Source: a virus. From it: a stretch of 26,174 nt of DNA. Of the stretch, positions 2,980 to 23,016 are shown one piece after another. The translations under genes and the position numbers were made by a program. Positions within the stretch are counted from its first letter, which is position 1; every line of letters begins with the position of its first letter. Below the pieces are notes generated by a model. It saw nothing but the letters and a program-made list of their open reading frames with translations. It was not told the origin of the DNA and made no database searches. Location: positions 1 through 26,174 of IMG/VR virus record IMGVR_UViG_3300003873_000091. One strand, 5' to 3'.

Positions 2980-3726
2980 ATGAGCATAGTTCTAGATAGT
3001 AAAAAGAATGACCCTAAAAATGTGGGTAAGAAAAGTATCGTAAAAGATGAAAATGGTTATTATAAGATATTTCTAGGTAAACTTAACTCTTATAATAGTA
3101 GTGGTATCTTCTATAGAGTTATGGATATGAGAGAATTATTAACTGGTAATAATTCTACCATATCTAAACGAATAAAAGAAGGACTTGTTAAAGGTGAACA
3201 AGACCATCCTGATTTCAGAGGTATGGATCAGACAGAGTTAATAAATAGGATATTCCATATAGATATGGATAACTATTCACACCATATTAAAAGCATAGAG
3301 TTTATTAACACTAATAAATATGAGAAAGGTTGGGAAAAATATCCTATCCATGAAGTATGGGGTTGGGTTAAACCTTCTGGACCTAAGGGTAAATATTTAC
3401 AAGAGGATTTAGATAACCCTGATATGAATGTTGCTTTTAGTATTCGTTCAGCTGTTCATGAGGATAGAGTAGGTGCTATGGTTGTTAGAACTGTACTTGA
3501 TATCTCTACATGGGACTGGGTTCACGAGAACGGTGTTAAGAATGCTACTCAATGGTTTGGTGCTGGTTTAGAGAAATCTTCTTATGATGGTACTGGGACA
3601 CTTTGTTTAAATGGTAGTTGTGCTACTAAGTTAAGAGAAATGATACCTGGTAATGAGAGCAAAGATTATTTAAAAGATTTGGCAGATAAGTTAGATAAAC
3701 AAACTAATAAGGTTTTCAGATGGTGA
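2980..3726 (+). CDS. Prohead (head maturation) protease, T4 gp21-like
   Basis: 248 residues with AAAGGA upstream. The protein has the layout of caudoviral prohead serine proteases: an N-terminal strand region, then GEQDHPDF with the probable catalytic His76, matching the G-E-x-x-HP of that family, and after a beta region the segment VAFSIRS at 151-157, corresponding to the family's G-V-S-S-R-G loop, with Ser154 as likely nucleophile. Such proteases cleave scaffold and capsid precursors, and themselves, inside the prohead before packaging. The size fits the family (about 200-250). The third catalytic residue cannot be assigned by eye. The last 7 bases overlap the next gene. Confidence 0.8.
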   Translation: MSIVLDSKKNDPKNVGKKSIVKDENGYYKIFLGKLNSYNSSGIFYRVMDMRELLTGNNSTISKRIKEGLVKGEQDHPDFRGMDQTELINRIFHIDMDNYSHHIKSIEFINTNKYEKGWEKYPIHEVWGWVKPSGPKGKYLQEDLDNPDMNVAFSIRSAVHEDRVGAMVVRTVLDISTWDWVHENGVKNATQWFGAGLEKSSYDGTGTLCLNGSCATKLREMIPGNESKDYLKDLADKLDKQTNKVFRW

Positions 3727-4138: not shown

Positions 4139-4318
4139 ATGAAAAAGATTACATTACTTTTAACTTTACTATTAGTCGCTACAGTTAGCTTTGGACAAGA
4201 AACAAAACAAAAAGAGAGTATTGTCTATTATAACACGTATATACAAAATAAACATAGTAATCCAGTTAGCTCGAATAGTTATATAGTACAAACTATAGAA
4301 AACTTAAAACATAAGTAA
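4139..4318 (+). CDS. Tiny secreted protein with Sec signal peptide (59 aa)
   Basis: The ATG at 4139 has AGGAT about 7 bases upstream and encodes 59 residues ending NLKHK. Residues 1-19 form a textbook Sec signal: MKK, a hydrophobic core of Leu/Thr/Val, and VSFG before a likely cut near residue 19. The mature peptide would be about 40 polar residues without Cys. There is no lipobox. The stop codon lies inside the downstream terminator hairpin, which supports a real gene. The function is unknown; an envelope-directed phage peptide is the most one can say. Confidence 0.7.
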   Translation: MKKITLLLTLLLVATVSFGQETKQKESIVYYNTYIQNKHSNPVSSNSYIVQTIENLKHK

Positions 4319-4340
4319 TACCTTTAAGGTATTACTTATG
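4310..4340 (+). terminator. 31-nt near-perfect palindromic terminator
   Basis: 15-bp stem CATAAGTAATACCTT / AAGGTATTACTTATG around a single central T (loop effectively TTTAA or similar), followed by AT-rich sequence with TTTTTT at 4359-4364. It contains the stop codon (4316-4318) of the small secreted protein in its 5' arm. Confidence 0.8.
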
Positions 4341-4367
4341 AATAATTGAGTTCTATTATTTTTTAGC

Positions 4368-4394
4368 TATATATTATTAATATGTAAATAAACA
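4368..4394 (+). promoter_or_regulatory. Phage promoter motif, copy 3
   Basis: TATATATTATTAATATG followed directly by TAAATAAACA, only 15 bp before the ATG at 4410, with AAGGAG in between. Transcription must start inside or at the edge of the motif for the ribosome-binding site to be on the mRNA. Confidence 0.75.
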
Positions 4395-4409
4395 ATAAAA
4401 GGAGTAATA

Positions 4410-5006
4410 ATGAAAGCTAATATAACCTATAGCGACAACCCTATGCGGGATTCTATGATTAGTAAATTCAATAGTTTTAGACCTGAATTTAGAGAGTCTA
4501 TTAATGAGAGTCATAATATGTTTATGCAGAACATGGGTAATGTAAATAATGTTTTCCAACAACAGTTTAACCAAGTTAATGATTTCTATAATAATAATAT
4601 TGAATTAAATAATGCTATTGAGAATCTAACTGATGTTGGTAAAATGAATGATGATTTACATATCTATCCAGTTGGTATAGATAACTATGAACATATCGGT
4701 ATAAATATGAGAAGATATATTATGGCTGAACCTGAGATTAATAGATTATATAAACTTAATAGGATAGAAGGGTTTGGTGGAGAGTTTATTAATAATAGTC
4801 CTGATGCACCTATTAGTGAAAATGGTGATTATTTATCAGCTACTTCAGGTATGTTAACATTTGATGAAGATGGTAATGGTGTTATAAAAACATATGTTAG
4901 TACAGAAGACGAAGTATTAACAACGGCTGAGAAGATTAATATTAGAGAGAGTTGGGATTTTGTTAAGATGATGATAAACAATGATGATGACATTACATCG
5001 TTATAA
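4410..5006 (+). CDS. Unknown phage protein (198 aa)
   Basis: First gene after promoter copy 3, with an AAGGAG ribosome-binding site. 198 residues: residues 1-75 are polar, helical and rich in Asn, Gln, Met and Phe (NNVFQQQFNQVNDFYNNN), a composition typical of coiled or flexible structural segments. The C-terminal part has an acidic loop (LTFDEDGNGVIKTY, about 150-163) that resembles but does not match an EF-hand, and an acidic tail. No membrane segment or recognised family. Confidence 0.75.
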   Translation: MKANITYSDNPMRDSMISKFNSFRPEFRESINESHNMFMQNMGNVNNVFQQQFNQVNDFYNNNIELNNAIENLTDVGKMNDDLHIYPVGIDNYEHIGINMRRYIMAEPEINRLYKLNRIEGFGGEFINNSPDAPISENGDYLSATSGMLTFDEDGNGVIKTYVSTEDEVLTTAEKINIRESWDFVKMMINNDDDITSL

Positions 5007-5016
5007 GGATATATAA

Positions 5017-5148
5017 ATGAATGTTTTAAAAAGTATTTGGGAAACAGTTTGTAGATTACTAGACTTTAACATACAGTCATGGTCTACATTAAGAATCAAA
5101 TATACTAAAGGTAAATCTTATGGTATGTTTTATAATAAGGATAAATGA
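5017..5148 (+). CDS. Small unknown protein (43 aa)
   Basis: The ATG at 5017 follows AAGGAT (5004-5009) at good spacing and opens 43 codons (MNVLKSIWETVCRLLDFN at the start) ending TGA at 5146-5148. That stop overlaps the next start by one base, an ATGA arrangement typical of translational coupling. The product is basic with an amphipathic N-terminal helix. Coupling and a ribosome-binding site support reality; no function is visible. Confidence 0.6.
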   Translation: MNVLKSIWETVCRLLDFNIQSWSTLRIKYTKGKSYGMFYNKDK

Positions 5149-5456
5149 TGGTTGATGAAAGTAAACTAGCTAAAGATTGCTTAGTATTTTTAACAGGAGA
5201 TGATAAGTTAATTGGATGTATTAGCGATACTAGGTTAATAGGCGGAGCGATGCTAACTTATACTATTATGTATTATGAAGAGTCGTTTAAGTTTATTACG
5301 ACTGTAGGCTTTTTAATAGATTGTAAAGATGGTGTTTTGACAGCTGAAGATCATGGCGAGGTTAAAAGACTTAATAAAGAAGACTTTAAAGAGTATGCTA
5401 TGAGACATAACTTTAAATATATGTTACCTGTAAATGAAACAATGGATATATGCTAA
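5148..5456 (+). CDS. Unknown small protein (102 aa)
   Basis: Start chosen at 5148 because AAGGA (5137-5141) is 6 bases away and the previous stop TGA overlaps its A; the ATG at 5145 is 3 bases from that site and less likely. The N-terminal half looks like a small beta domain (CLVFLTGDDKLIGCISDTRL, about residues 10-29), similar in feel to small SH3/Sm-like folds, followed by a helical tail. I do not recognise a family. It ends the 4410-5456 unit and converges on the terminase gene. Confidence 0.7.
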   Translation: MVDESKLAKDCLVFLTGDDKLIGCISDTRLIGGAMLTYTIMYYEESFKFITTVGFLIDCKDGVLTAEDHGEVKRLNKEDFKEYAMRHNFKYMLPVNETMDIC

Positions 5457-5473
5457 CTATGTTAGCATATATC
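5445..5473. terminator. Bidirectional hairpin between convergent genes
   Basis: 13-bp perfect stem GATATATGCTAAC / GTTAGCATATATC with loop TAT. The upstream plus-strand gene stops inside the 5' arm (TAA 5454-5456), and the minus-strand terminase gene stops 7 bases beyond the other arm, so one hairpin can serve both transcripts. Confidence 0.7.
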
Positions 5474-5479
5474 TTTATA

Positions 5480-6892
5480 TTAAAGTTGATTTCTATATCT
5501 TTTATTTTTCTGTATTTTACGATATAGTTTTATATCTTTTAGTAACGAGTCTATGTTAAGATTAGTTATTATAGACGTATCTATTTTAGCTTCTAACATC
5601 TTTATACTACCTAATATGATAGCACCTTGAGCTTCGTTCTTAGTACTACTAAGTTTCTTTATAAAACCATCTATCTTATCTCTTATAGCCATTTGTTTCT
5701 TTATTTTCTCTTTATCTGCTTTTGGATTATTTGCTAATAACTCATTATCAATAACAGCATTTAATTTATCATTATATGGTAATCCATATACTTCTGTATT
5801 TTTGGCATATTGTAAGAAGTAATATGCTAGTAACCAAGCTATAACAAGGTCATCGTGTTCGCCTGTATCGTGGTCTACTCTGTTACCAGCTATCTTTAAT
5901 CCTGATAACTGATTAATTAAAGTAGGGTCATATACAGCATTTGAAGTAAAGTTTAAACTAGCTCTAAAAACATTTCCATATAGCAAACCTCTAGATTGTT
6001 CTCCAGCACCTGCAGTAGCAAAACCAAAAGCTTTCTTATTCTTATCTAAGTTAGTCATAGAGGGTAACTTATTTATTAACTCATTATCGCTAACTCCGTT
6101 AGGTTTCATAGTACCATTTACTATGCGATTGAATATTCTTTTAAAAGGATTCATTTTCTTTAATAACATAATTCTAAACATATTATCTAAAATAGCCATA
6201 GCAGATGATTTTCTTTCAGGAATTAAAATAGACTTAGGAAACTCTTCTAATAACTCTACTAAAAAGTCTGCAAAGATTGATAAGTTAATTTCGTTATAGT
6301 TACCAGCTCCTATAACAGCCCCTGTGCGACTATCTCTTATAACTAGACCAATACCATCTGATTTACCACCAAGAGCATCTGAGGTATCTAAACCGATGAT
6401 TAAGAAGTGTTCTCTTGCAAGTTTTTGTAGTTGATATAATGGAACATAAAATTTAACTACAAAACCATATTTAGATATAAAAGGAGTATACTTATTTCTT
6501 TTACTATTAACAACAATATCTAATAATTCTTTAGGTATAGGATTGGTATCGTTACCATTAATCCATTTATTAAAGTAATCTGATTCAGCATTTTCACCTG
6601 AACTAAGTGCCGCTGCTAATCTTTCTCTTAGCCACGCATCCGTAAAACCTAGTTGTCTATGATTATACTCTAATAACATTACTTTAAACATCTTAGAATT
6701 CTTCTCTAAAATATTATCTAAAACATCTATATTTTTAGAATCAAAGAACTTCTCGTTCCATCTTAATGACTCGTTATAAACCTTGTACGCAAATCTACCA
6801 TCAGGAGAGTTTAACTTTCCAGGAGTTGTTGTGAACATAGTGTAATATGGCGCGTTAGCTAACTTAGCAGCTTCGCGTGCGGCCTTCTTATT
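5480..6892 (-). CDS. terL: Terminase large subunit, exon 2 (C-terminal part, nuclease domain)
   Basis: About 470 residues continuing the ATPase encoded at 8603-9355 after removal of the group I intron. It opens with a segment typical of terminase ATPase domains just after Walker B (KKAAREAAKLANAPYY, then FTTTPGK, the coupling motif). The RNase H-like nuclease follows: IIGLDTSDALGG with a metal-binding Asp, LIPERKSS with the conserved Glu, and HDDLVIAWLLAY with the closing Asp. Together these subunits cut concatemeric DNA and pump it into proheads. Upstream of the first codon the frame is closed by a TGA, and the TTG at 6893-6895 lacks a ribosome-binding site, so independent translation is unlikely. 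Joined to exon 1 the protein would be about 720 residues. Confidence 0.88.
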   Translation of the reverse strand, partial: NKKAAREAAKLANAPYYTMFTTTPGKLNSPDGRFAYKVYNESLRWNEKFFDSKNIDVLDNILEKNSKMFKVMLLEYNHRQLGFTDAWLRERLAAALSSGENAESDYFNKWINGNDTNPIPKELLDIVVNSKRNKYTPFISKYGFVVKFYVPLYQLQKLAREHFLIIGLDTSDALGGKSDGIGLVIRDSRTGAVIGAGNYNEINLSIFADFLVELLEEFPKSILIPERKSSAMAILDNMFRIMLLKKMNPFKRIFNRIVNGTMKPNGVSDNELINKLPSMTNLDKNKKAFGFATAGAGEQSRGLLYGNVFRASLNFTSNAVYDPTLINQLSGLKIAGNRVDHDTGEHDDLVIAWLLAYYFLQYAKNTEVYGLPYNDKLNAVIDNELLANNPKADKEKIKKQMAIRDKIDGFIKKLSSTKNEAQGAIILGSIKMLEAKIDTSIITNLNIDSLLKDIKLYRKIQKNKRYRNQL

Positions 6893-8612
6893 CAATCACA
6901 ATCGCTAATTGTAACCAGCACCATGACGTGCGTCTACTTCTTTCGTATAGGTTCTTCTAGAACCAAGTAGAATAGATCATATCATAATCTTGTCTAATAA
7001 TTCAATTTTAATTTCTTTACTAACAGAATTTAAGTGTCTAAGGGTAATGTTTTCTAATGGTATATTTTTTATATCTTCTATATTATAAAACTTACTTATA
7101 TGGTCCATAACATTGAATGTACTTAATATATACTTTATTTTATCTTTCTTAATATCTTTAAATATATATACTTTATTAGAGAAAGCTTTACCTGCTCTGG
7201 AGAGTAAAATCCTTTTAAGGGAATATTTTTTCCATGGCAAAATTGTCTCGCCATCTCTAATAAATTGTATATTATAACCAACGACTAACTTACTAGTATC
7301 ACTACCATCACGTCTCGGTACTATATCTATTCGTTTAATATTAATAAAATGTTTTTTCATTATAAAAAGCCTAATACTTTCCCTAGTCTTAAATGTACGA
7401 ACAAGTTCACCAGTATTAACCATATCTTTAACTAGATAGTATCCTCTACCTGTATTATATTGTCTTTTACGATAACTATGTCGCTCATCTTTTATACGTT
7501 TTTCCGATATACTAAACTTGTTAAAACATTCATCTATGTCAAGTTGCTTAGAAGATATTATGTAACCTAGATTTAATAAAAAATTCTCACTAAGTCTCTT
7601 AATACTCCTGATACCTGTATCATATGTTAAAGTACCTATACTTAAGTATTTCGTTATTTTATTTGTTAAACGATCATAGCAATAAATTTTACTCCCATGT
7701 AAAGAAGAGTTTAAATTATTTAGATATCTTTCCAAATCTAATATTGTTACAATATACCTATTAAGAATGGGGTATTTTTTAGAATATTTAACATAACCAA
7801 TAAAATGTTTTAAATCTATTTTTAATATTTTAGAAAATTGTTGTAATGATTGATATGTTGTAGTGGTATTAGTTTTAATGTCATAAGTCGTAATACTATT
7901 ATTTAGAGTCGATAAACCACTACTGTATGCGTGATTAGTGTTATCTTTAGCGGTACTCCATTCAAGGTTTACCGTTTTATTATTAGTCTTTACGCCGTCT
8001 ATATGATTAACTTGCGGTTTTTTATATGGGTTAGGTATAAAAGCGTTTGCTACAAGCCTATGTATAGATAGATTGTGTTTTTTATTACCTATTCTAATAG
8101 AAACACGCGAGTAACCATTTAAACTACGTAAAGGTTTTAAAATGTATTTTGTCTCTCTATTTATGACATCACCGTCACCACTGACAGCATATGTTTTATT
8201 CTGTTCTATTTCTTTAAATTGTTTTTTATTAAATATAAGCATTGTTTCTCCTGCAATATAATCGCCAGTGAAACTGCCTACATAAGATTAACTCCGTTTC
8301 GATTTAAGGGATTCGATACCCACCTGCTTAGGCCCTACACCTTACTAAAGGGTTGATCGTTGAACTCATACTCTCTTATTACTAAGATAACTTTCGTTAT
8401 TTAAGGTACTTCGCTGCGTCGGTTGTCCATTGTATATCTTTTAGTGTTTTTACCTTGCCACAAATTTCCATTACTGATTGTGGTGTTATAATATATTTCT
8501 ATTTATAAGTGGTAACTATAAGCTTTAGGAGTTTCCCGCAATTAGGAGTTGTTCACTATAGCCTCACGACTATAGCGGTCATTATTATACAAATTTCTTT
8601 GTATAACGTTTA
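6893..8612 (-). other. Group I intron (subgroup IA-like) interrupting terL
   Basis: Read on the minus strand, the core elements of phage T4 td-type introns appear in order. P2 is a 10-bp hairpin capped by a GUGA tetraloop (CGCTATAGTC-GTGA-GGCTATAGTG, about 8576-8553). The P element AATTGCGGGAAAC is near 8542-8530, and Q is AACCGACGCAGCGAAG near 8423-8408. R is TTCAACGATCA, followed by CCCTTTAGTAAGG and GTGTAGGG as P7.1/P7.2. S is ATGATATGATC near 6984-6974, and GATCA in R pairs with TGATC in S to make P7. P9-like hairpins follow. The HNH gene fills the loop between R and S. The 3' boundary is probably the G at 6893. The 5' boundary lies between 8612 and 8603: splicing after GTT (8612) gives TV-NKK, after TAT (8603) gives KRY-NKK; both are in frame. 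The exact U-G pair of P1 could not be fixed. Confidence 0.85.
6977..8242 (-). CDS. Intron-encoded HNH homing endonuclease (NUMOD4/HNH type)
   Basis: 421 residues with a strong ribosome-binding site AGGAG 6 bases before the ATG. The N-terminus has a NUMOD4-like segment (YAVSGDGDVINRETKYILKP, about residues 18-37). The HNH core of the HNH_3 type follows: HRLVANAFIPNP, then QVNHIDGVKTNN and LEWSTAKDNTNHAY (about 61-106). The C-terminal half has repeated short units that look like NUMOD1-type DNA-recognition modules (YDIKTNTTTTY and YDRLTNKITKYLSIG). Such enzymes cut intronless alleles and spread the intron by homing. It sits in the intron's P8-side loop, in the same direction as terL. Its TGA stop lies within the S element of the ribozyme core. 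The long C-terminal part (about 200-421) is only partly explained. Confidence 0.9.
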   Translation of the reverse strand: MLIFNKKQFKEIEQNKTYAVSGDGDVINRETKYILKPLRSLNGYSRVSIRIGNKKHNLSIHRLVANAFIPNPYKKPQVNHIDGVKTNNKTVNLEWSTAKDNTNHAYSSGLSTLNNSITTYDIKTNTTTTYQSLQQFSKILKIDLKHFIGYVKYSKKYPILNRYIVTILDLERYLNNLNSSLHGSKIYCYDRLTNKITKYLSIGTLTYDTGIRSIKRLSENFLLNLGYIISSKQLDIDECFNKFSISEKRIKDERHSYRKRQYNTGRGYYLVKDMVNTGELVRTFKTRESIRLFIMKKHFINIKRIDIVPRRDGSDTSKLVVGYNIQFIRDGETILPWKKYSLKRILLSRAGKAFSNKVYIFKDIKKDKIKYILSTFNVMDHISKFYNIEDIKNIPLENITLRHLNSVSKEIKIELLDKIMI

Positions 8613-9355
8613 ACAGTTGCTGATAATAATACTGGTAGTGATGTTTCTATGTTATAAATATAACCGAATTCATCTACCCTAGCAGTAGGTATTGTCTGAC
8701 CACGACCCATGTTATCGGCGGCTTTTTTATCTTTCTGACCAACATATATATTAAGTATATTACCAAAGGCTCTATTAGTAAGTTTCTCAGTATTTTTGAT
8801 ATCTTTCTTACCCACTACTTGTAAATAAAGTGGTAGTAGTTCTACTAAATCTCTGATAGCATTCGCAGTCCTTGCCCGAAGTTTGTCATCCTTAGTTAAT
8901 AGGAACAGGTCAGAGTTAGCCGCACCTATATTTAATGTATAAGCATCAAGAGCATTACCTATTAAAGATTTCCCAGTTTGACGAATCTGTATAAGGTATG
9001 TCGTTATATGATTAAATGCTAACCATAATGTTGAAATATTTGCACGATTAGCGGTTAATGGTAGCGGGGTATTACCAGCTGGAGGAGGTACTCTTAATAC
9101 TTCTCTAAAGAAATACCAAGGATTAACCTTACATTCCACGGCTATAGCTACTTTTTGATTAACTGTTAAGTTCTCATCATAAGGATCTACTCCCTGTAAA
9201 TCTGGGTTATGTAATGCTAAATGAAAAGTATTATTCTCAATACTCATCTTTCTTAATAGTCCTGCAAATCTTAAGAAACTAATATTCTTTGTTTTAATGT
9301 CTACTATGGCAGAGAAGTTCTCTGGCTTAGCCCAATCTTCTTTAAATAAAATCAT
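8603..9355 (-). CDS. terL: Terminase large subunit, exon 1 (N-terminal part, ATPase domain)
   Basis: About 248-251 residues starting at an ATG with AAAGGAAA upstream on the minus strand. It carries the packaging ATPase: IQIRQTGKS with the Walker A-like RQTGKS at 125-130, and Walker B VDEFGYIYN with Asp228-Glu229. The frame continues a few codons into the intron (to 8585) and stops, so an unspliced message gives a truncated ATPase without nuclease. Exon 2 resumes at 6892. No copy of the recurrent promoter motif precedes it; the divergent 9356-9458 region must contain a different promoter. Confidence 0.9.
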
Positions 9356-11575: not shown

Positions 11576-12085
11576 ATGACTCTAATAAAATACTTACTTA
11601 AAAGTTTACATTGTAATAAACTTGTATTAAAACTCAACCATAGAATAATTCATCTAGAAAAAACTGTTAACTTATATCGTTATGATGAGTTAACAGGATT
11701 TAAACTTAGACACGATTATAATAAAGACATTACTAATAGTTGTGATAATTCTAATGAAACATACTTAACAATAATTGATATAAATAGATTACACCACATA
11801 AATGAAGAACACGGTTACTTAGCTGGTGATAGACATATAGCTACAATTAGTAAAGCTATAAAGAGAAAAATACCTGATGGTACTTTCTATAGGATAGGTG
11901 GCGATGAGTTTGCTGTGATACATCATAAACCATTATTCGCTTTACCAGTTAGGAACACTGTTCATTCCACAGTTTTATTATCTGAGTATTCTGACTATAG
12001 AGCTATAATGGATTTTGTCAAAGAAGATTTAAGTTGTAAGAAAGAGTTATGGTATAATGTTAAAGGTTTAGATAGAAGAGAATAA
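11576..12085 (+). CDS. GGDEF-domain protein (diguanylate-cyclase type)
   Basis: 169 residues with AAGG upstream. Motifs in order: YDELTGFKLR (36-45), the D-x-L-T-G-x-x-N-R entry motif; IIDINRLHHINEEHG and AGD (66-85), corresponding to D-x-D-x-F-K-x-x-N-D-x-x-G-H-x-x-G-D with metal-binding Asp68 and guanine-binding positions Asn76 and Asp85; and FYRIGGDEFAVI (104-115) with an intact GGDEF loop. There is no RxxD inhibition site before GGDEF. Diguanylate cyclases make c-di-GMP from two GTP as homodimers. Here residues 1-33 form a short helix that could dimerise, with no sensor domain. The second Asp of D-x-D is Asn70 and the Phe-Lys pair is Leu-His, so activity or substrate may differ. The C-terminal 50 residues depart from the family. 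Confidence 0.85.
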   Translation: MTLIKYLLKSLHCNKLVLKLNHRIIHLEKTVNLYRYDELTGFKLRHDYNKDITNSCDNSNETYLTIIDINRLHHINEEHGYLAGDRHIATISKAIKRKIPDGTFYRIGGDEFAVIHHKPLFALPVRNTVHSTVLLSEYSDYRAIMDFVKEDLSCKKELWYNVKGLDRRE

Positions 12086-13416: not shown

Positions 13417-15249
13417 ATGAAAGAAATTATGAGACCTGACGGTGTATGGATTAATAGTGATGTTGTTGAGAAATCGTTTTTAGAAGACAATATCGTTATA
13501 GATAAAACTAATATGGAAATGAAAGAGTTTCTAGATAGACATTATAGTTCTTACTTACAACAAAATGTAATATCTAATAGATATAAAACTACTGAACATT
13601 TAACTAAGTATTATGATACTAAATTAGAGGATATATTAACTAAAGAATTTATAGAGGATAATATGCCCGAGGTTAAGATTAGTACTCCTATAATTTTAGA
13701 TGTTATAAAGAATAACAAGAAATTAATACATAGTCACGATGGTGACTGTGATGGGATAACTAGTGGTGCTATTGTTAGTAAGATGTTGAAAGGGTTATTC
13801 GATTATGATAACTTTGAAATATTCACTAGTAGTAGGAATGATGGTTATGGTGTTAATGATAAGGTTACTGAAGCTATATTAAAGTATAAAGATATAAGTT
13901 TAGTCATGACTAGTGACCATAGTAGTAGTGACAGGAAGAATCTTACTAGAATAAAAGAAGGGTTGAACTGTAAAGTAATAGCTACCGACCATCACCTTTT
14001 TGAAGAGAAGACTGCTCCTTTAAATATGGATGTTTTTGTAAATCCTCAGAGAGATACTTGTAGTAAAGACTTTAAAGATTTGAATGGAACACATGTTATA
14101 TATTATACCTTGCTACATGCTTTTCTTTCTAGCGATATTGAAGTTACTGAAGATAAGAAGAATTATTACTACTATCTTTTAATGTATGTTGGGTTAACTA
14201 TCATATCCGATTGTATGGATTTAAAGAACTATATAAATAGAAAGATAGTTATTAAGATGTTAACGATGATGAATAGTAAACATACTAAACATGATATGTT
14301 CTGGAAAGTTACTATTAATAGACTTCGTAATAGTAAAATATTTGATGAGTCTACTATAGGTTATAATGTTAGTCCTATAATAAATAGTTCTGGTAGATTA
14401 GGTATTCCTAGACTTGGTTATGAGTTAATGGTATCTGAAGATTTAGATACTACTATGAAACTTTATGACGATATTACTGAGGTTAATAAGACTAGAAAAG
14501 AGAGACAAGATGTTGCTGTTAAATCTGATAAGAACCTTAGTTATAATGATGGTAAAATCTATATAGGATTAATGGAAGGAAGTGAAGGGGTACAGGGTAT
14601 ACTTTCTAATACAGTTATGTTTAATGAGAATTATAAAGTAGCTATAATCTTTACTAGAACTAAGGTTAAGGATAAGTATATTTTACAAGGTAGTGGTAGG
14701 TCTCAAGATGAAAATTTACATCTTAAGAATATACTAGATAATATTAGTAAGAAACATGATATAATAATAACTCATGGAGGTCATCAGAAAGCTATAGGTA
14801 TAAAGATAAAAGATGATATGAAATTATTCTATAAGATACTTAAAGAAGAGATAGATAAAACTAATGTTAAGAAGATAGAGAATTTTAGAGTTAGTAGTCA
14901 TATCTATAGCGATAAGAAGCTTATACTAAACATATTCGATATGATAGATATAGGTCCGTTTGGTATAGGGTTTGAGAAGCCTAATTTTGTTAGTGACTTT
15001 TATATCGAGAGTTATAGAGTATTTAAAAGAAATAAGTATTTTGTAACATTGAAAGTTAAGTTAGATAAAACTAGTAGAAACAGTTTTACAGTATTTTATA
15101 ATGTTAAAGATAAGGACATAGAAGAATTTGATAAAGGTATTATGAACCATAAGTATATTAGATTAGTATATACTATAGGTCTTAATAGTTATAGGAACTT
15201 TAATAGTATACTATTAAACGGTATAGATATGAAATTCAAGAAGTACTAG
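13417..15249 (+). CDS. DHH-family phosphoesterase, RecJ-like nuclease
   Basis: 610 residues with AAAGGA upstream. RecJ/DHH motifs appear in order: HSHDGDCDGITS (105-116) as motif I (H-x-D-x-D-G); SDHSSSD (166-172) as motif II; TDHHLF (190-195), the DHH motif; IISDCMDL (262-269), the conserved Asp; INSSGRLG (322-329), like RecJ I-N-A-A-G-R; GSGRSQD (425-431); and THGGHQKAIG (452-461), the GGH of the DHHA1 substrate domain. These support a Mn/Mg-dependent 5'-3' single-strand exonuclease or a close relative, probably for phage recombination, repair or host DNA degradation. About 90 extra N-terminal residues precede motif I. It heads a three-gene operon, in divergent orientation to 12119-13345. 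Confidence 0.88.
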   Translation: MKEIMRPDGVWINSDVVEKSFLEDNIVIDKTNMEMKEFLDRHYSSYLQQNVISNRYKTTEHLTKYYDTKLEDILTKEFIEDNMPEVKISTPIILDVIKNNKKLIHSHDGDCDGITSGAIVSKMLKGLFDYDNFEIFTSSRNDGYGVNDKVTEAILKYKDISLVMTSDHSSSDRKNLTRIKEGLNCKVIATDHHLFEEKTAPLNMDVFVNPQRDTCSKDFKDLNGTHVIYYTLLHAFLSSDIEVTEDKKNYYYYLLMYVGLTIISDCMDLKNYINRKIVIKMLTMMNSKHTKHDMFWKVTINRLRNSKIFDESTIGYNVSPIINSSGRLGIPRLGYELMVSEDLDTTMKLYDDITEVNKTRKERQDVAVKSDKNLSYNDGKIYIGLMEGSEGVQGILSNTVMFNENYKVAIIFTRTKVKDKYILQGSGRSQDENLHLKNILDNISKKHDIIITHGGHQKAIGIKIKDDMKLFYKILKEEIDKTNVKKIENFRVSSHIYSDKKLILNIFDMIDIGPFGIGFEKPNFVSDFYIESYRVFKRNKYFVTLKVKLDKTSRNSFTVFYNVKDKDIEEFDKGIMNHKYIRLVYTIGLNSYRNFNSILLNGIDMKFKKY

Positions 15250-15280: not shown

Positions 15281-17338
15281 ATGATAAGAGCTGGTTTAGA
15301 GAGTTTAATACACGAACAACTTAATGATTGGATTATACCTGAGTTGAATAATCTATATGTTAGTCTTGAGAAAGTCTTTGGACTATACTACGAGAAGAAA
15401 ACTATTAGTAGAAAAGATTATGAAAGAGATTTTGATAAGATTGTAAATGATTTTGAAAAGACTACTACTGAAAGGTTTGGATTTAGAGTTACCTTAAGGG
15501 CATCCACTACATTTGCTATCATGCCTATCTTTAATACTGATACATTAAAAGCTAGTGTATATAGTGTTAATAGCTTTAATAAAGATGTTAACCACAGTAT
15601 AAAACAACTTAAGACATTTAAGAAAGATTTAGTTAATGGTAATGATATAACTATAGATTTAGTTAAAGCTAAAGTATATGGTTTAAGTAAGGATACTTAC
15701 TTCCCATTATTTATACATAAACATATGATATATAGTAAAAAGTTTGACCTTACTAACTTCATTACTATTATGTTACATGAGATAGGACATGTCTTTACGC
15801 TGTTAGAGATGTTTACTAGTACTAATAAAGCTATAACTTCATTAGCTGATAACCTTATATTAAATAATGATATAGATGGTCTTATAAGTGATTTAAACAT
15901 AACGGCTGATAGAAACCTTAGCTCTAAAGATAAAGTTGTTAAAGTATACGATACTATTACTGGTGATTTAGGAAAAATACAATTAGCTAATGGTAGGGTT
16001 AGCGATAACACTGATATAGAGTTCGAGGCTGATAACTTTGTAGCTAAGTTTGGTTATGGTGGAGATTTGATTAAGACTCTTAATAAACTAGTTGGTGTTA
16101 ATGAGAATGAAAGAATAATAGTCATAATTTTTAGTCTATATTATTTAACTACAATGGCATTATTTAACTTAATACTAATTACATTTTCTATAAATCCTAT
16201 TAGTATATTCTTATTGCTAGGCATCTTTACTGTTATAGATATAGTGTCTAAGATTACTAGACTATCTAGTATTAGTGATAATAGGAACCCTTCTAATGGA
16301 GAGCATGGAGATTTTCTTACTAGATATAAGAGAAGTCGTAGTTCTATGATAGCTATGTTAAGGAACTATACTTTAGATAAGACTGAACTTAAAAGCTTGA
16401 TAAATCAGATAGATACTATAGATAAAGAAATAGCTAAGTTAGATAAGAGTTTATTTAATTCTTATTTTGGTTCTTTAATGCATGAGTCTTTAGGTGTTAA
16501 TTTAAACCTTAGAGATAAATTAGCTACACTAGTAGATAACACTATTAACAATGATTTACACTTAATGAGTGGTAAGTTTAAAGCTGGGTTAGAAGCTAAA
16601 GACTTTATGGATACTGTAGGTGTTGTTTATACAGAAGTTAAGTTTAGTGGTATGTATGATAATAGTAGATATTTTGCTAGTTTATTAAAGATTAAAAAGA
16701 ATACTGTTTTACTTAATAAAGTTTTAGCTAAGTATAATTACGAGGTAAGATATGTTAAGGATGAGAAAAGTTTAGGTGTAAAATCTAATGAAATCATTAC
16801 TATCGCATCAGGCATTAGTGGCTTTGCTATGGTGCCAAAAGTAGTTACTAAGGATACAGCGGTAGTGTCAGTTACATTAGAATCAGAAAAGGTTATATGG
16901 TTATTAGAAAACCCTTATATACATGTTTATAACATTGATGTAATTAAGGTTAATGATATTAAGTACATATATGTAATGGAGATGGAACATATTAGTATAT
17001 TAGGTATTACTAATAGGTCTGATAAAATCTTAACTAAAATATGGGATAAGCTTAATAAACACCATGAAGACTACGGTGAAAGTGATGCGAGTATATTATT
17101 AGATATTATATTAGATATAAAGTTACCTAAAGTACTACACGAACAGTTTGTTTTGTTAAAAAAGTTAGTTAACGACTTAGATATTACCCCTCAGCTAGAT
17201 TTACATGGTGGTAATATCGGTACTAATAACAGAGATGAACTAGTGCTATTAGACCCTATATTTAATCAGGTTAAAGTCGGACTTAAACAGAATAACTATG
17301 TGGAGTTGAATTTAACTAAACTTTCTGATAAGGAATAG
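15281..17338 (+). CDS. Metallopeptidase-membrane-kinase-like fusion protein
   Basis: 685 residues with AAAAGGA upstream. Three parts are visible. (1) A zinc metallopeptidase-like domain: IMLHEIGHVF with HExxH at 166-170, and EFEADNFVAKFG with Glu249 as probable third ligand, the E-A-D-x-x-A pattern of M48 peptidases. (2) Two hydrophobic segments, about 279-300 and 306-322, placing both ends on the same side of a membrane, then RNPSNGEHGDFLTRYKR, which recalls the M48 H-P-x-x-x-x-R region, and a helical linker. (3) A C-terminal region with the eukaryotic-like kinase/aminoglycoside-phosphotransferase catalytic pattern: VMEMEHI as hinge, LDLHGGNIG (639-647; Asp640, Asn645) and LVLLDPI (654-660; Asp658). 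A classic Lys in the N-lobe is not certain. Neither activity is proven. It could cleave and phosphorylate membrane-associated host targets, which is inference. Confidence 0.75.
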   Translation: MIRAGLESLIHEQLNDWIIPELNNLYVSLEKVFGLYYEKKTISRKDYERDFDKIVNDFEKTTTERFGFRVTLRASTTFAIMPIFNTDTLKASVYSVNSFNKDVNHSIKQLKTFKKDLVNGNDITIDLVKAKVYGLSKDTYFPLFIHKHMIYSKKFDLTNFITIMLHEIGHVFTLLEMFTSTNKAITSLADNLILNNDIDGLISDLNITADRNLSSKDKVVKVYDTITGDLGKIQLANGRVSDNTDIEFEADNFVAKFGYGGDLIKTLNKLVGVNENERIIVIIFSLYYLTTMALFNLILITFSINPISIFLLLGIFTVIDIVSKITRLSSISDNRNPSNGEHGDFLTRYKRSRSSMIAMLRNYTLDKTELKSLINQIDTIDKEIAKLDKSLFNSYFGSLMHESLGVNLNLRDKLATLVDNTINNDLHLMSGKFKAGLEAKDFMDTVGVVYTEVKFSGMYDNSRYFASLLKIKKNTVLLNKVLAKYNYEVRYVKDEKSLGVKSNEIITIASGISGFAMVPKVVTKDTAVVSVTLESEKVIWLLENPYIHVYNIDVIKVNDIKYIYVMEMEHISILGITNRSDKILTKIWDKLNKHHEDYGESDASILLDIILDIKLPKVLHEQFVLLKKLVNDLDITPQLDLHGGNIGTNNRDELVLLDPIFNQVKVGLKQNNYVELNLTKLSDKE

Positions 17339-17340
17339 CT

Positions 17341-17619
17341 ATGGAAAACGTTGACACTAACTTTGATTGGAATAGGTCTGTAAAATTTGGTAAAGAACTA
17401 GTTGATAAGCTTAATAAGGATTATAGAACACCTTATACATTTAAACTAGTGAAAGCTAAGTACGGTATATATCATAGTCTAGAGGTACATCTAAGTAAAG
17501 AAAACCTTTTCTTAGTAGCTAGCGAGGTTAAGATAATCTTTGGTAGCGGTACTAGGATAAAAACTTACTTTAGTACTATAGATAAAGTATATGAATTAAT
17601 AACTAACAAACTCACATAA
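17341..17619 (+). CDS. Unknown small protein (92 aa)
   Basis: Begins 2 bases after the stop of the fusion protein, with AAGGA inside the end of that gene, so it is coupled to it. 92 residues: a helical N-terminus (SVKFGKELVDKLNKDY) and a predicted alpha-beta layout resembling small adaptor domains. No motif is recognised. The linkage suggests a partner or regulator of the peptidase-kinase protein. Its stop codon lies inside the terminator hairpin. Confidence 0.7.
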   Translation: MENVDTNFDWNRSVKFGKELVDKLNKDYRTPYTFKLVKAKYGIYHSLEVHLSKENLFLVASEVKIIFGSGTRIKTYFSTIDKVYELITNKLT

Positions 17620-17896: not shown

Positions 17897-17919
17897 GAAT
17901 AAGGTTAAAATCCTTATTC
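17897..17919 (+). terminator. Terminator after the small hairpin-rich unit
   Basis: 8-bp perfect stem GAATAAGG / CCTTATTC with a 7-base loop, followed by TTATTTTTTT: a conventional intrinsic terminator. Confidence 0.85.
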
Positions 17920-18007
17920 TTATTTTTTTATTAAATTTTATTTAGTTACTTATTATATGAAAAAGTTATTAATTTCTTTTTGGTTAAATATGTGAGAGGT
18001 TTCATTT

Positions 18008-18253
18008 TGGGCTAACCAAGCACTGACTTGTACAGAAATGTATAGACGAGAGCTTTGAGCTGCAGAATAAACCCAGTGAATTTATTATTCGCGACTTTTT
18101 CACATTTCCCACTCGGTTTGCTACGTGCTTCTTAACGGGAGTGCGTGGTCGACTACGGGACCGAACCCAGGTTAGCTAGCTTGGAAAAAAGAAGTAGCAG
18201 TTGGCTTAAATACCCCTAGCTGGAGGCGAGAGTCGTGAGGTTCACTCACGACT
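18008..18253 (+). ncRNA. Candidate structured non-coding RNA in a GC-richer block
   Basis: About 245 bp with clearly higher G+C than its surroundings, no ORF, and many possible helices. GCTAACC (18011-18017) pairs at long range with GGTTAGC (18170-18176), with an overlapping alternative CCAAGC/GCTTGG (18016-18021/18179-18184). TTGTACA-GAAA-TGTATAG has a GNRA tetraloop (18028-18045). GGTTTG/CGAACC (18115-18120/18162-18167) encloses CTACGTGC/GTGCGTGG (18121-18128/18141-18148, with wobbles). CAGTTGG pairs with CTAGCTG further on. The block ends in a 9-bp hairpin AGTCGTGAG-GTTCA-CTCACGACT (18231-18253). I could not match it to tRNA, tmRNA, RNase P, 6S or a group I core. The strand is assumed from neighbouring genes; the helices exist on both. 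Confidence 0.55.
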
Positions 18254-18762
18254 AAAAAATATATTAAAGAGTATTAAAATAATTAAAGATATTATAATAA
18301 TAGAGATACTATAGTTACATATATAACACTATACACTATAGCTATATACTTAAGCTATAAGTACTAACCTATATAAGTCTTAAGAGTTTTGATTTTGACG
18401 ATATGTTTTTTTTTACATAACATAACACTTTTTTTTTTAGTATGTACTATATGCCTTATGGTGTATAGTATATATGTTGTTATGTTCTATAATACTTTTT
18501 ATAGTATGTACTACATGTTCTTATGTGTTATACATCTCTTATATACTTATTCTTTTATAAGTAACTATAGTTAGATGGGAAAATTATAATCTGTAATAAT
18601 AGTGTTAATGTGTTAGTAGTGTATACATATGATGTTTTTTATATATTATTGTATTTTAATAAGTTATATAGATTAGCTATATGAAGTTAATTGTTAAATG
18701 TGAATAATGATATAGGTTTATAAAGATATTGTCTTTAAAGTGATTTAAAACTCTTTTTAAGC
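18254..18762. other. Very AT-rich non-coding stretch with short repeats
   Basis: About 500 bp of nearly pure A+T with T-runs (18405-18414, 18429-18438) and short inverted repeats (ACTATAG, CTATAG, ACTTAAGCTATAAGT). Two copies of the palindrome-like TAGTATGTACTA (18438-18449 and 18502-18513) each continue into a similar ATG..TTATG tail, 64 bp apart. The only ORF, a 61-codon frame at 18389-18574, starts at TTG without a ribosome-binding site and is low-complexity. Possible origin, promoter or spacer; nothing decides. Confidence 0.5.
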
Positions 18763-18788
18763 ATATATAATTAATATGTAGATAAACA
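18763..18788 (+). promoter_or_regulatory. Phage promoter motif, copy 6
   Basis: ATATATAATTAATATG followed by TAGATAAACA (one change). It lies 89 bp before the first ATG of the next gene. Confidence 0.7.
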
Positions 18789-18877
18789 TGTTGTTGTAGA
18801 ATAGTTTTATTGTTAAGGATATTTTTAAAGGTGAAGTTAATATACTTGGATGTGAGGTTACTAGTTTTAGTTTAGAT

Positions 18878-22613: not shown

Positions 22614-22656
22614 AACTATAAGACACTTGATGGCTTATAGTTATAAGGAGTTTATT

Positions 22657-23016
22657 ATGGATAGAAGAAGTTTTTTAAAAGGGTTATCGTTAACTCTAGG
22701 TACAGGATTAATAGGTGCTGAAATAATTAGTAATCCGAAAGAATTAAAAGAAATACCTTTAGATTCTACAGTGTTACAGCCTACTAGTCCTTTAACAGCA
22801 CAAGAGGTTTTAAGTTCTAAGCATTTACTTATTAAAGATTACGATGGTGATGTACTTAATCCGTATAATACCAGTAATAAATATTTGACACCAAACATGT
22901 TTCCTCACAGATATACCGATATGACATTACCTAACCCTTACAGTAAACCTGTAGTTGAAAAAAGAAAAAGGATACTATCTTATAAAAATCCTTTACTAGC
23001 ACCTTTTATAAAGTAA
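22657..23016 (+). CDS. Small protein with twin-arginine (Tat) type signal (119 aa)
   Basis: Start chosen at 22657, with AAGGAG 6-7 bases upstream; longer in-frame starts at 22627 and 22630 lack a site and would bury the signal. Residues 1-16 are MDRRSFLKGLSLTLGT: a twin-arginine motif RRSFLK with the following hydrophobic, Gly-containing stretch to about residue 24. This closely matches the S/T-R-R-x-F-L-K consensus for export of folded proteins, with Asp before the arginines. There is no obvious AxA cleavage site, so it may stay anchored. The mature part is Pro-, Asn- and Tyr-rich without recognised domains. The stop overlaps the next small ORF (TAATG). Confidence 0.75.
   Translation: MDRRSFLKGLSLTLGTGLIGAEIISNPKELKEIPLDSTVLQPTSPLTAQEVLSSKHLLIKDYDGDVLNPYNTSNKYLTPNMFPHRYTDMTLPNPYSKPVVEKRKRILSYKNPLLAPFIK

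Follow-up and report, generated by a model that had tools for sequence, protein, structure and literature searches.

Our analysis of a 26,174-nucleotide viral DNA (IMG/VR record IMGVR_UViG_3300003873_000091, positions 1 to 26,174, hereafter the window) identified a single open reading frame in which a metallopeptidase of the phiKZ gp84 type is fused to a domain with a predicted kinase fold (15281..17338, plus strand; 685 aa, 78.1 kDa). Both halves are of known kinds, and it is their fusion that appears to be new. We propose that this protein is a polyprotein, packaged in the capsid and divided in head maturation into a membrane metallopeptidase and a kinase-fold domain like that of T7 gp0.7, a reading to which we give an even chance. 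Window coordinates below refer to the plus strand unless stated otherwise.

The fusion and its genomic context

The 685-codon frame at 15281-17338, to which the initial annotation had drawn attention, runs without interruption, and a purine-rich AAGGA lies a little upstream of its ATG. The same two-domain protein is present in four other IMG/VR contigs (L010, L011, L012 and L014), which share their gene order with the window, and the fused set consists of five sequences in the collections we searched, all from metagenomic fragments. The kinase-fold domain was missing from every isolate examined, a search with a C-terminal profile and a DNA pattern for DLHxxNWGxN found no members beyond these same contigs, and no free-standing copy of the domain was found elsewhere in the relatives or near unfused peptidases. 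Since nine divergent phage homologues agree without exception in 13 alignment columns, and since four further contigs carry the same two-domain protein, the fusion is real and its motifs are beyond chance. An assembly or frame artefact, or a chance occurrence of the motifs, has a negligible probability, with the artefact refuted by the finding of the same architecture and gene order in four independent contigs at 26-40% identity. One of these relatives has a longer form of the protein, a 1162-aa ORF (L012:7977-11465) with two complete peptidase units in tandem, each with its own HEIGH motif and ExxxD, followed by the kinase domain. In the literature we searched, we did not find a peptidase-kinase fusion, an S80-type motif at every module boundary, or this tandem form.

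The window is, by its gene content, a fragment of a phiKZ-type phage genome, since it encodes an S80 head protease, a PHROG 2926 virion protein and a terminase (both from the profile search), and a PhuZ-type phage tubulin (19529..20581; PHROG 4733, E 1.7e-38), the last located downstream of the fusion ORF in all five cases. The genes relevant to the Chimalliviridae within this 26 kb fragment are the PhuZ tubulin, the S80 protease and the gp84-type peptidase. Immediately upstream of the fusion ORF is a gene for a RecJ-like nuclease (13417..15249; PHROG 2484, E 5e-53), which bears out the initial assignment and is kept in this position in all four relatives. A 92-aa ORF (17341..17619) follows the fusion ORF and is lineage-specific, with no family match and no counterpart in the four relatives. 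Judged by the spacing between them (31 bp from the RecJ-like gene to the fusion ORF, and 2 bp from there to the 92-aa ORF), co-transcription of the three genes is plausible. Promoter-like sites in the window were no more frequent than in shuffles, and an Rfam search gave no match.

Several other features of these contigs were observed. On the minus strand of the window, the terminase large subunit (5480-9355) appears to be in two parts, 8585-9355 and 5480-6895, separated by an HNH/NUMOD homing-endonuclease gene (6977-8242), an interruption that suggests an intron. The RecJ homologue of L012 (L012:3829-7486) is likewise in two frames (118 + 502 aa) with an HNH-like ORF (4221-5513) inside, and this split suggests another intron or an intervening homing gene. 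Next to thyX lies a gene (11576-12085) for a phage protein of 169 aa that matches several PHROGs of unknown function and contains a GGDEF diguanylate-cyclase domain (Pfam E 5.4e-11) with its GGDEF motif intact. Over nearly 1 kb (17897-18870), beginning with a terminator-like stem-loop downstream of the peptidase-kinase operon, the only ORF is a poor one of 61 aa. Finally, a small protein (22627-23016) with MDRRSFLKGLSLTLG near its N-terminus, resembling a twin-arginine signal, was without a family match.

The N-terminal half belongs to a phiKZ-type head protein family

Residues 42-434 of the fusion protein match PHROG 2767 (E 8e-21), and tblastn searches found homologues of the peptidase half in phiKZ-type isolates; with RAY gp286 as the query, a homologue was present in 271 phage records, including phiKZ PHIKZ084, which its GenBank record describes as a 'structural head protein'. 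The locus of this gene in SPN3US is gp45, and an alignment of 45 members showed that the homology spans a 420-aa core. On these matches, the N-terminal half (residues 1-434) is a member of the core phiKZ-type head protein family (phiKZ gp84, SPN3US gp45, RAY gp286). The initial annotation, which had called for profile searches with each half, missed this known family, and with the N-terminal half placed in it, the likely site of action shifts to the virion and the set of ejected proteins.

The zinc site is conserved throughout this family. Residues H166, E167, G169, H170, E247, D251 and R348 are invariant in all 45 aligned members, most of which are only 16-25% identical to the window protein. 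The first four lie in the zinc-binding motif HEIGH at residues 166-170 (15776..15790), where an HExxH had been noted before, and E247 and D251 lie in the segment E247-F-E249-A-D251 (16019..16033), which contains the third zinc ligand and an ExxxD of the M48 type. The M48-like character of this motif, as initially described, is upheld, but the choice of Glu249 as the ligand is not: position 249 is Glu in just 4 of the 45 members and position 247 in 45 of 45, so that by conservation the third ligand is E247. When the family profile was aligned with human ZMPSTE24, an M48 peptidase, HEIGH paired with HELGH and E247..D251 paired with RRFEFQADAFA (ExxAD), the helix that we take to bear the third zinc ligand of ZMPSTE24.

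The relationship to M48 is a distant one. Pfam M48 was matched by 12 of the 45 members at E <=0.1, the best with an E of 0.0029, and the window protein did not match PF01435; the closest homologue tested singly reached 20.0 bits against a cut-off of 20.3, and no tested member attained the gathering score. With HExxH and ExxxD conserved and the Pfam score below its cut-off, the sequence evidence places an M48-type site in a protein that is nevertheless outside the curated M48 family. A Foldseek search with the full-length model gave, among the matches listed, only kinases as meaningful ones, and these came from the kinase half.

Phage records that include this conserved head protein (e.g., L003:7833-9095) label it 'virion structural' or 'beta-barrel assembly-enhancing protease', and its conserved zinc site speaks for a new annotation, M48-type head metallopeptidase. 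The gene that follows the peptidase in Vibrio phage sm033 encodes 664 aa (L006:9196-11190) and is possibly a fusion of the counterparts of phiKZ gp85 and gp86.

The two hydrophobic segments proposed initially were found at residues 279-297 (16115..16171) and 307-325 (16199..16255), and correspond to helices 273-301 and 306-334 in the model. From their sequence, these segments make a hairpin whose turn is short and uncharged and whose flanks carry a net positive charge.

A kinase fold is predicted for the C-terminal half

The C-terminal half (residues 439-685, 16595..17335; 28.2 kDa if released) contains DLHGGN at residues 640-645 (17198..17215), resembling a kinase-type catalytic loop (compare FDMHSGN of T7 gp0.7), and D658-P659 (17252..17257), a candidate metal-binding motif at the DFG position (compare ITDPV of T7 gp0.7). 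The pattern of Asp640, Asn645 and Asp658 is thus located where the initial annotation had placed it, and D640, H642, N645, D658 and P659, together with K537, W540, N544 and P545, do not vary among the five fusions.

An AlphaFold model of this domain, built from an alignment of five sequences only, had a pLDDT of 76 and a pTM of 0.78, with strands and helices in the order of a kinase (an N-lobe sheet with a C helix, then a hinge). Foldseek searches with this model returned many named phage protein kinases among the viral matches, the best match being to an unnamed protein (E 4.9e-7) and one to a named Klebsiella phage protein kinase having an E of 5.8e-6; the PDB matches listed were kinases or related phosphotransferases, weak at E 0.02 and with low TM-scores. 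The profile of T7 gp0.7 (PHROG 15752) matched four of the five fusions (L012, E 2e-7; L014, 2.3e-5; L011, 0.015; and weakly the window protein, 0.075), and a profile of the five members matched seven T7-type kinases (E 8.6e-6) over the DLHxGN..DP motif only. The C-terminal domain of the window protein, searched alone, had no significant match in any profile library, and direct searches of this half in Pfam, NCBIfam, PDB and phage records gave nothing credible. Of the two profile searches proposed initially, that with the N-terminal half thus led to a family and that with the C-terminal half of the window protein alone did not, whereas structure prediction followed by a fold search did return a kinase-like model with kinase matches. 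We predict, from the model, that residues 439-685 or thereabouts adopt a kinase fold. Profile matches in PDB to designed helical proteins were set aside as helical chance, and an origin of this domain as a fused copy of the small gp85-like gene downstream in isolates (about 150 aa) was rejected, there being no resemblance in sequence or motif.

Whether this fold would catalyze phosphate transfer is uncertain, since the lysine of strand beta-3 is missing in five of five fusions. In our alignment its position is occupied by Ser, Ser, Ser, Thr and Ile, in strands reading VVSVT, VVSLT, VVSIT, VVTVT and VIIIT, as against VIKVG in T7, and the lysine (K93) is invariant in T7-type kinases. With this replacement, the initial suggestion that the protein phosphorylates a target is not supported as it stands.

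Maturation motifs ahead of each module

A G-x-E motif precedes each module of the window protein. GLE at residues 5-7 (15293..15301) is a predicted N-terminal maturation site for the prohead protease and aligns with ASE-20 of SPN3US gp45, and GLE at residues 436-438 (16586..16594) is a predicted second site at the peptidase/kinase junction. The S80 head maturation protease encoded in the window (2980..3726; Peptidase_S80, E 1.2e-54; PHROG 3014, E 9e-59) itself contains GLE at residues 196-198 (3565..3573), with GIE in L069 and GLE in L070 at the same place; this is likely its autocleavage site, ahead of a C-terminal propeptide, and its position is close to that of the AQE-203 autocleavage site of SPN3US gp245.

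Previous work showed that cutting by the S80 protease follows AxE in SPN3US and a related SxE motif in phiKZ (PMC5694885), and mass spectrometry placed gp45 of SPN3US among the head proteins that this protease cuts, with ASE-20 as its site (PMC10052503, Table 2). The sequence at this site, AVASE/SIGFQ (the slash marks the cut), fits the motif of the family, [ASG]xE/[SATM]IxxQ, and an N-terminal [ASG]xE followed by a small residue and I, L or V is present in 39 of the 45 members, as against 14% of 70-residue control stretches. Residues 4-10 of the window protein read AGLE/SLI, and since GLE7 matches the family motif that contains ASE-20, the window protein is, by analogy, probably a head protein with a short N-terminal propeptide.

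At the second site, AGLE (residues 435-438) marks the exact point where the proteins of the isolates end and the kinase domain starts, and G436 and E438 are invariant in the five fusions while the adjacent residues vary. In the tandem protein of L012, VGLE/SI is located between the two peptidase units and GNE ahead of the kinase. The 7,438 aa of window proteins contain three GLE tripeptides, namely GLE7, GLE438 and the C-terminal site of the S80 protease; with about 1.9 expected by composition, it is not this count but the placement that is striking. We infer cleavage after E438, which stays a prediction because GxE is a short motif and window proteins for which no cleavage is expected contain further G[LIVFMN]E triplets. 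An internal restart upstream of the kinase, at M428, was rejected, as M428 is not kept in L010.

Discussion

Based on these findings, we propose that the peptidase of the phiKZ gp84 / SPN3US gp45 family gained a kinase-fold domain in a small clade of phiKZ-type phages. The fusion would be made as a polyprotein with a G-x-E maturation motif ahead of each module. The N-terminal motif would direct the protein into the prohead or accompany its entry, and cuts by the S80 head protease of the same phage, after E7 and after E438, would leave in the head a 49 kDa peptidase with its membrane hairpin and, released from it, a kinase-like protein of 28 kDa. Packaging in the capsid and N-terminal trimming have been shown for the orthologue SPN3US gp45, and by analogy we infer both for the window protein. 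The two products would then be ejected with the DNA at infection, by analogy with phiKZ gp86, a processed protein for which ejection is expected (PMC5694885) and whose gene is the second one downstream of gp84. Its hairpin and its zinc site point to a peptidase that would insert into the host inner membrane, or into a vesicle derived from it, and would cleave membrane proteins in the host envelope or early vesicle. It is possible that host proteins would be the targets of the kinase-like domain, at time zero; that the head protease divides the polyprotein and that a working kinase thereby enters the bacterium with the genome, ahead of phage gene expression, is in its entirety an unlikely combination.

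The initial annotation described a gluzincin half, a hairpin and a kinase-fold half in one ORF, and this architecture holds, while its zinc ligand, its phosphorylation of a target and its view that both domains stay joined on the same face of a membrane do not fare as well. If the fusion stayed in one piece, N-terminal trimming apart, it would be a membrane-anchored enzyme with both domains facing the cytosol. The hairpin, with its short uncharged turn and net positive flanks, would place both domains on the same side, the domains share one ORF in five of five members, and the full-length model has a continuous helix over residues 425-446, but the invariance of GxE, the type of motif cut by the head protease of this phage group, exactly at the domain junction suggests that the domains may be separated in the capsid, and L012 has GxE between its peptidase units as well; we therefore consider a one-piece enzyme somewhat doubtful. 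Combinable with either model of processing is a C-terminal domain that is a pseudokinase, with fold and metal-binding residues kept but no phosphate transfer, whose role would be to bind nucleotides, to dock proteins or to tag cargo for the capsid. This we hold to be a serious candidate, if short of an even chance: the Ser, Thr or Ile in place of the lysine that T7-type kinases keep as K93 favors it, whereas the invariance of D640, H642, N645, D658 and P659 among members down to 27% identity with the window argues for retained chemistry, and K537, likewise invariant and located where the predicted C helix begins, could substitute for the lysine. A zinc-site half that is a dead peptidase, retained as a structural scaffold of the head or membrane, would agree with the many records in which the family is annotated as virion structural, but is improbable given that zinc-binding and catalytic residues are all invariant (45/45) at the low identities of most members.

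In phages of the phiKZ type, genome and head proteins are injected jointly into a membrane vesicle by which the DNA is shielded, and the formation of this vesicle is named as an open question in a recent review (PMC12908238). Combining an intact M48-type zinc site with a hairpin, the conserved head protein of the 271 phage records, where the usual label is just 'virion structural', makes a good candidate for involvement in the vesicle, and one that can be tested by a single-residue change in a laboratory phage. With the fusion, a kinase-fold protein is connected with this route of packaging as well, which suggests a way for these phages to take on new effectors, namely to encode them after a maturation site. 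Our literature searches on phiKZ gp84 function, M48 peptidases in jumbo phages and phage virion kinases found nothing direct.

Comparison with known systems

The M48 peptidases (ZMPSTE24/Ste24, HtpX, BepA and OMA1) resemble the gp84/gp45 family in their HExxH + ExxAD zinc site and membrane association, with the helix of ZMPSTE24 aligned residue for residue; the gp84/gp45 family differs in its weak match to M48, in a hairpin that follows the third ligand and in being a phage head protein. The S80-processed head and ejection proteins of phiKZ and SPN3US (gp86, gp93, gp47 and gp53) are cut in the prohead C-terminal to [AS]xE, and no enzyme fusion of the peptidase-kinase kind is described among them in the literature we searched. 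The Ser/Thr kinase gp0.7 of T7 is of the same fold class as the C-terminal half (FDMHSGN...ITDP in T7, LDLHGGN...LLDP in the window), but keeps its beta-3 lysine and is encoded by a separate early gene, not joined to a head protein. Closest of all to the N-terminal half are the PHROG 2767 proteins phiKZ gp84, SPN3US gp45 and RAY gp286, which share its core, HExxH, ExxxD, R348, hairpin and N-terminal [ASG]xE; in the isolates these proteins end at about residue 434, and it is the kinase-fold domain and the second GxE that set the fusion apart from them.
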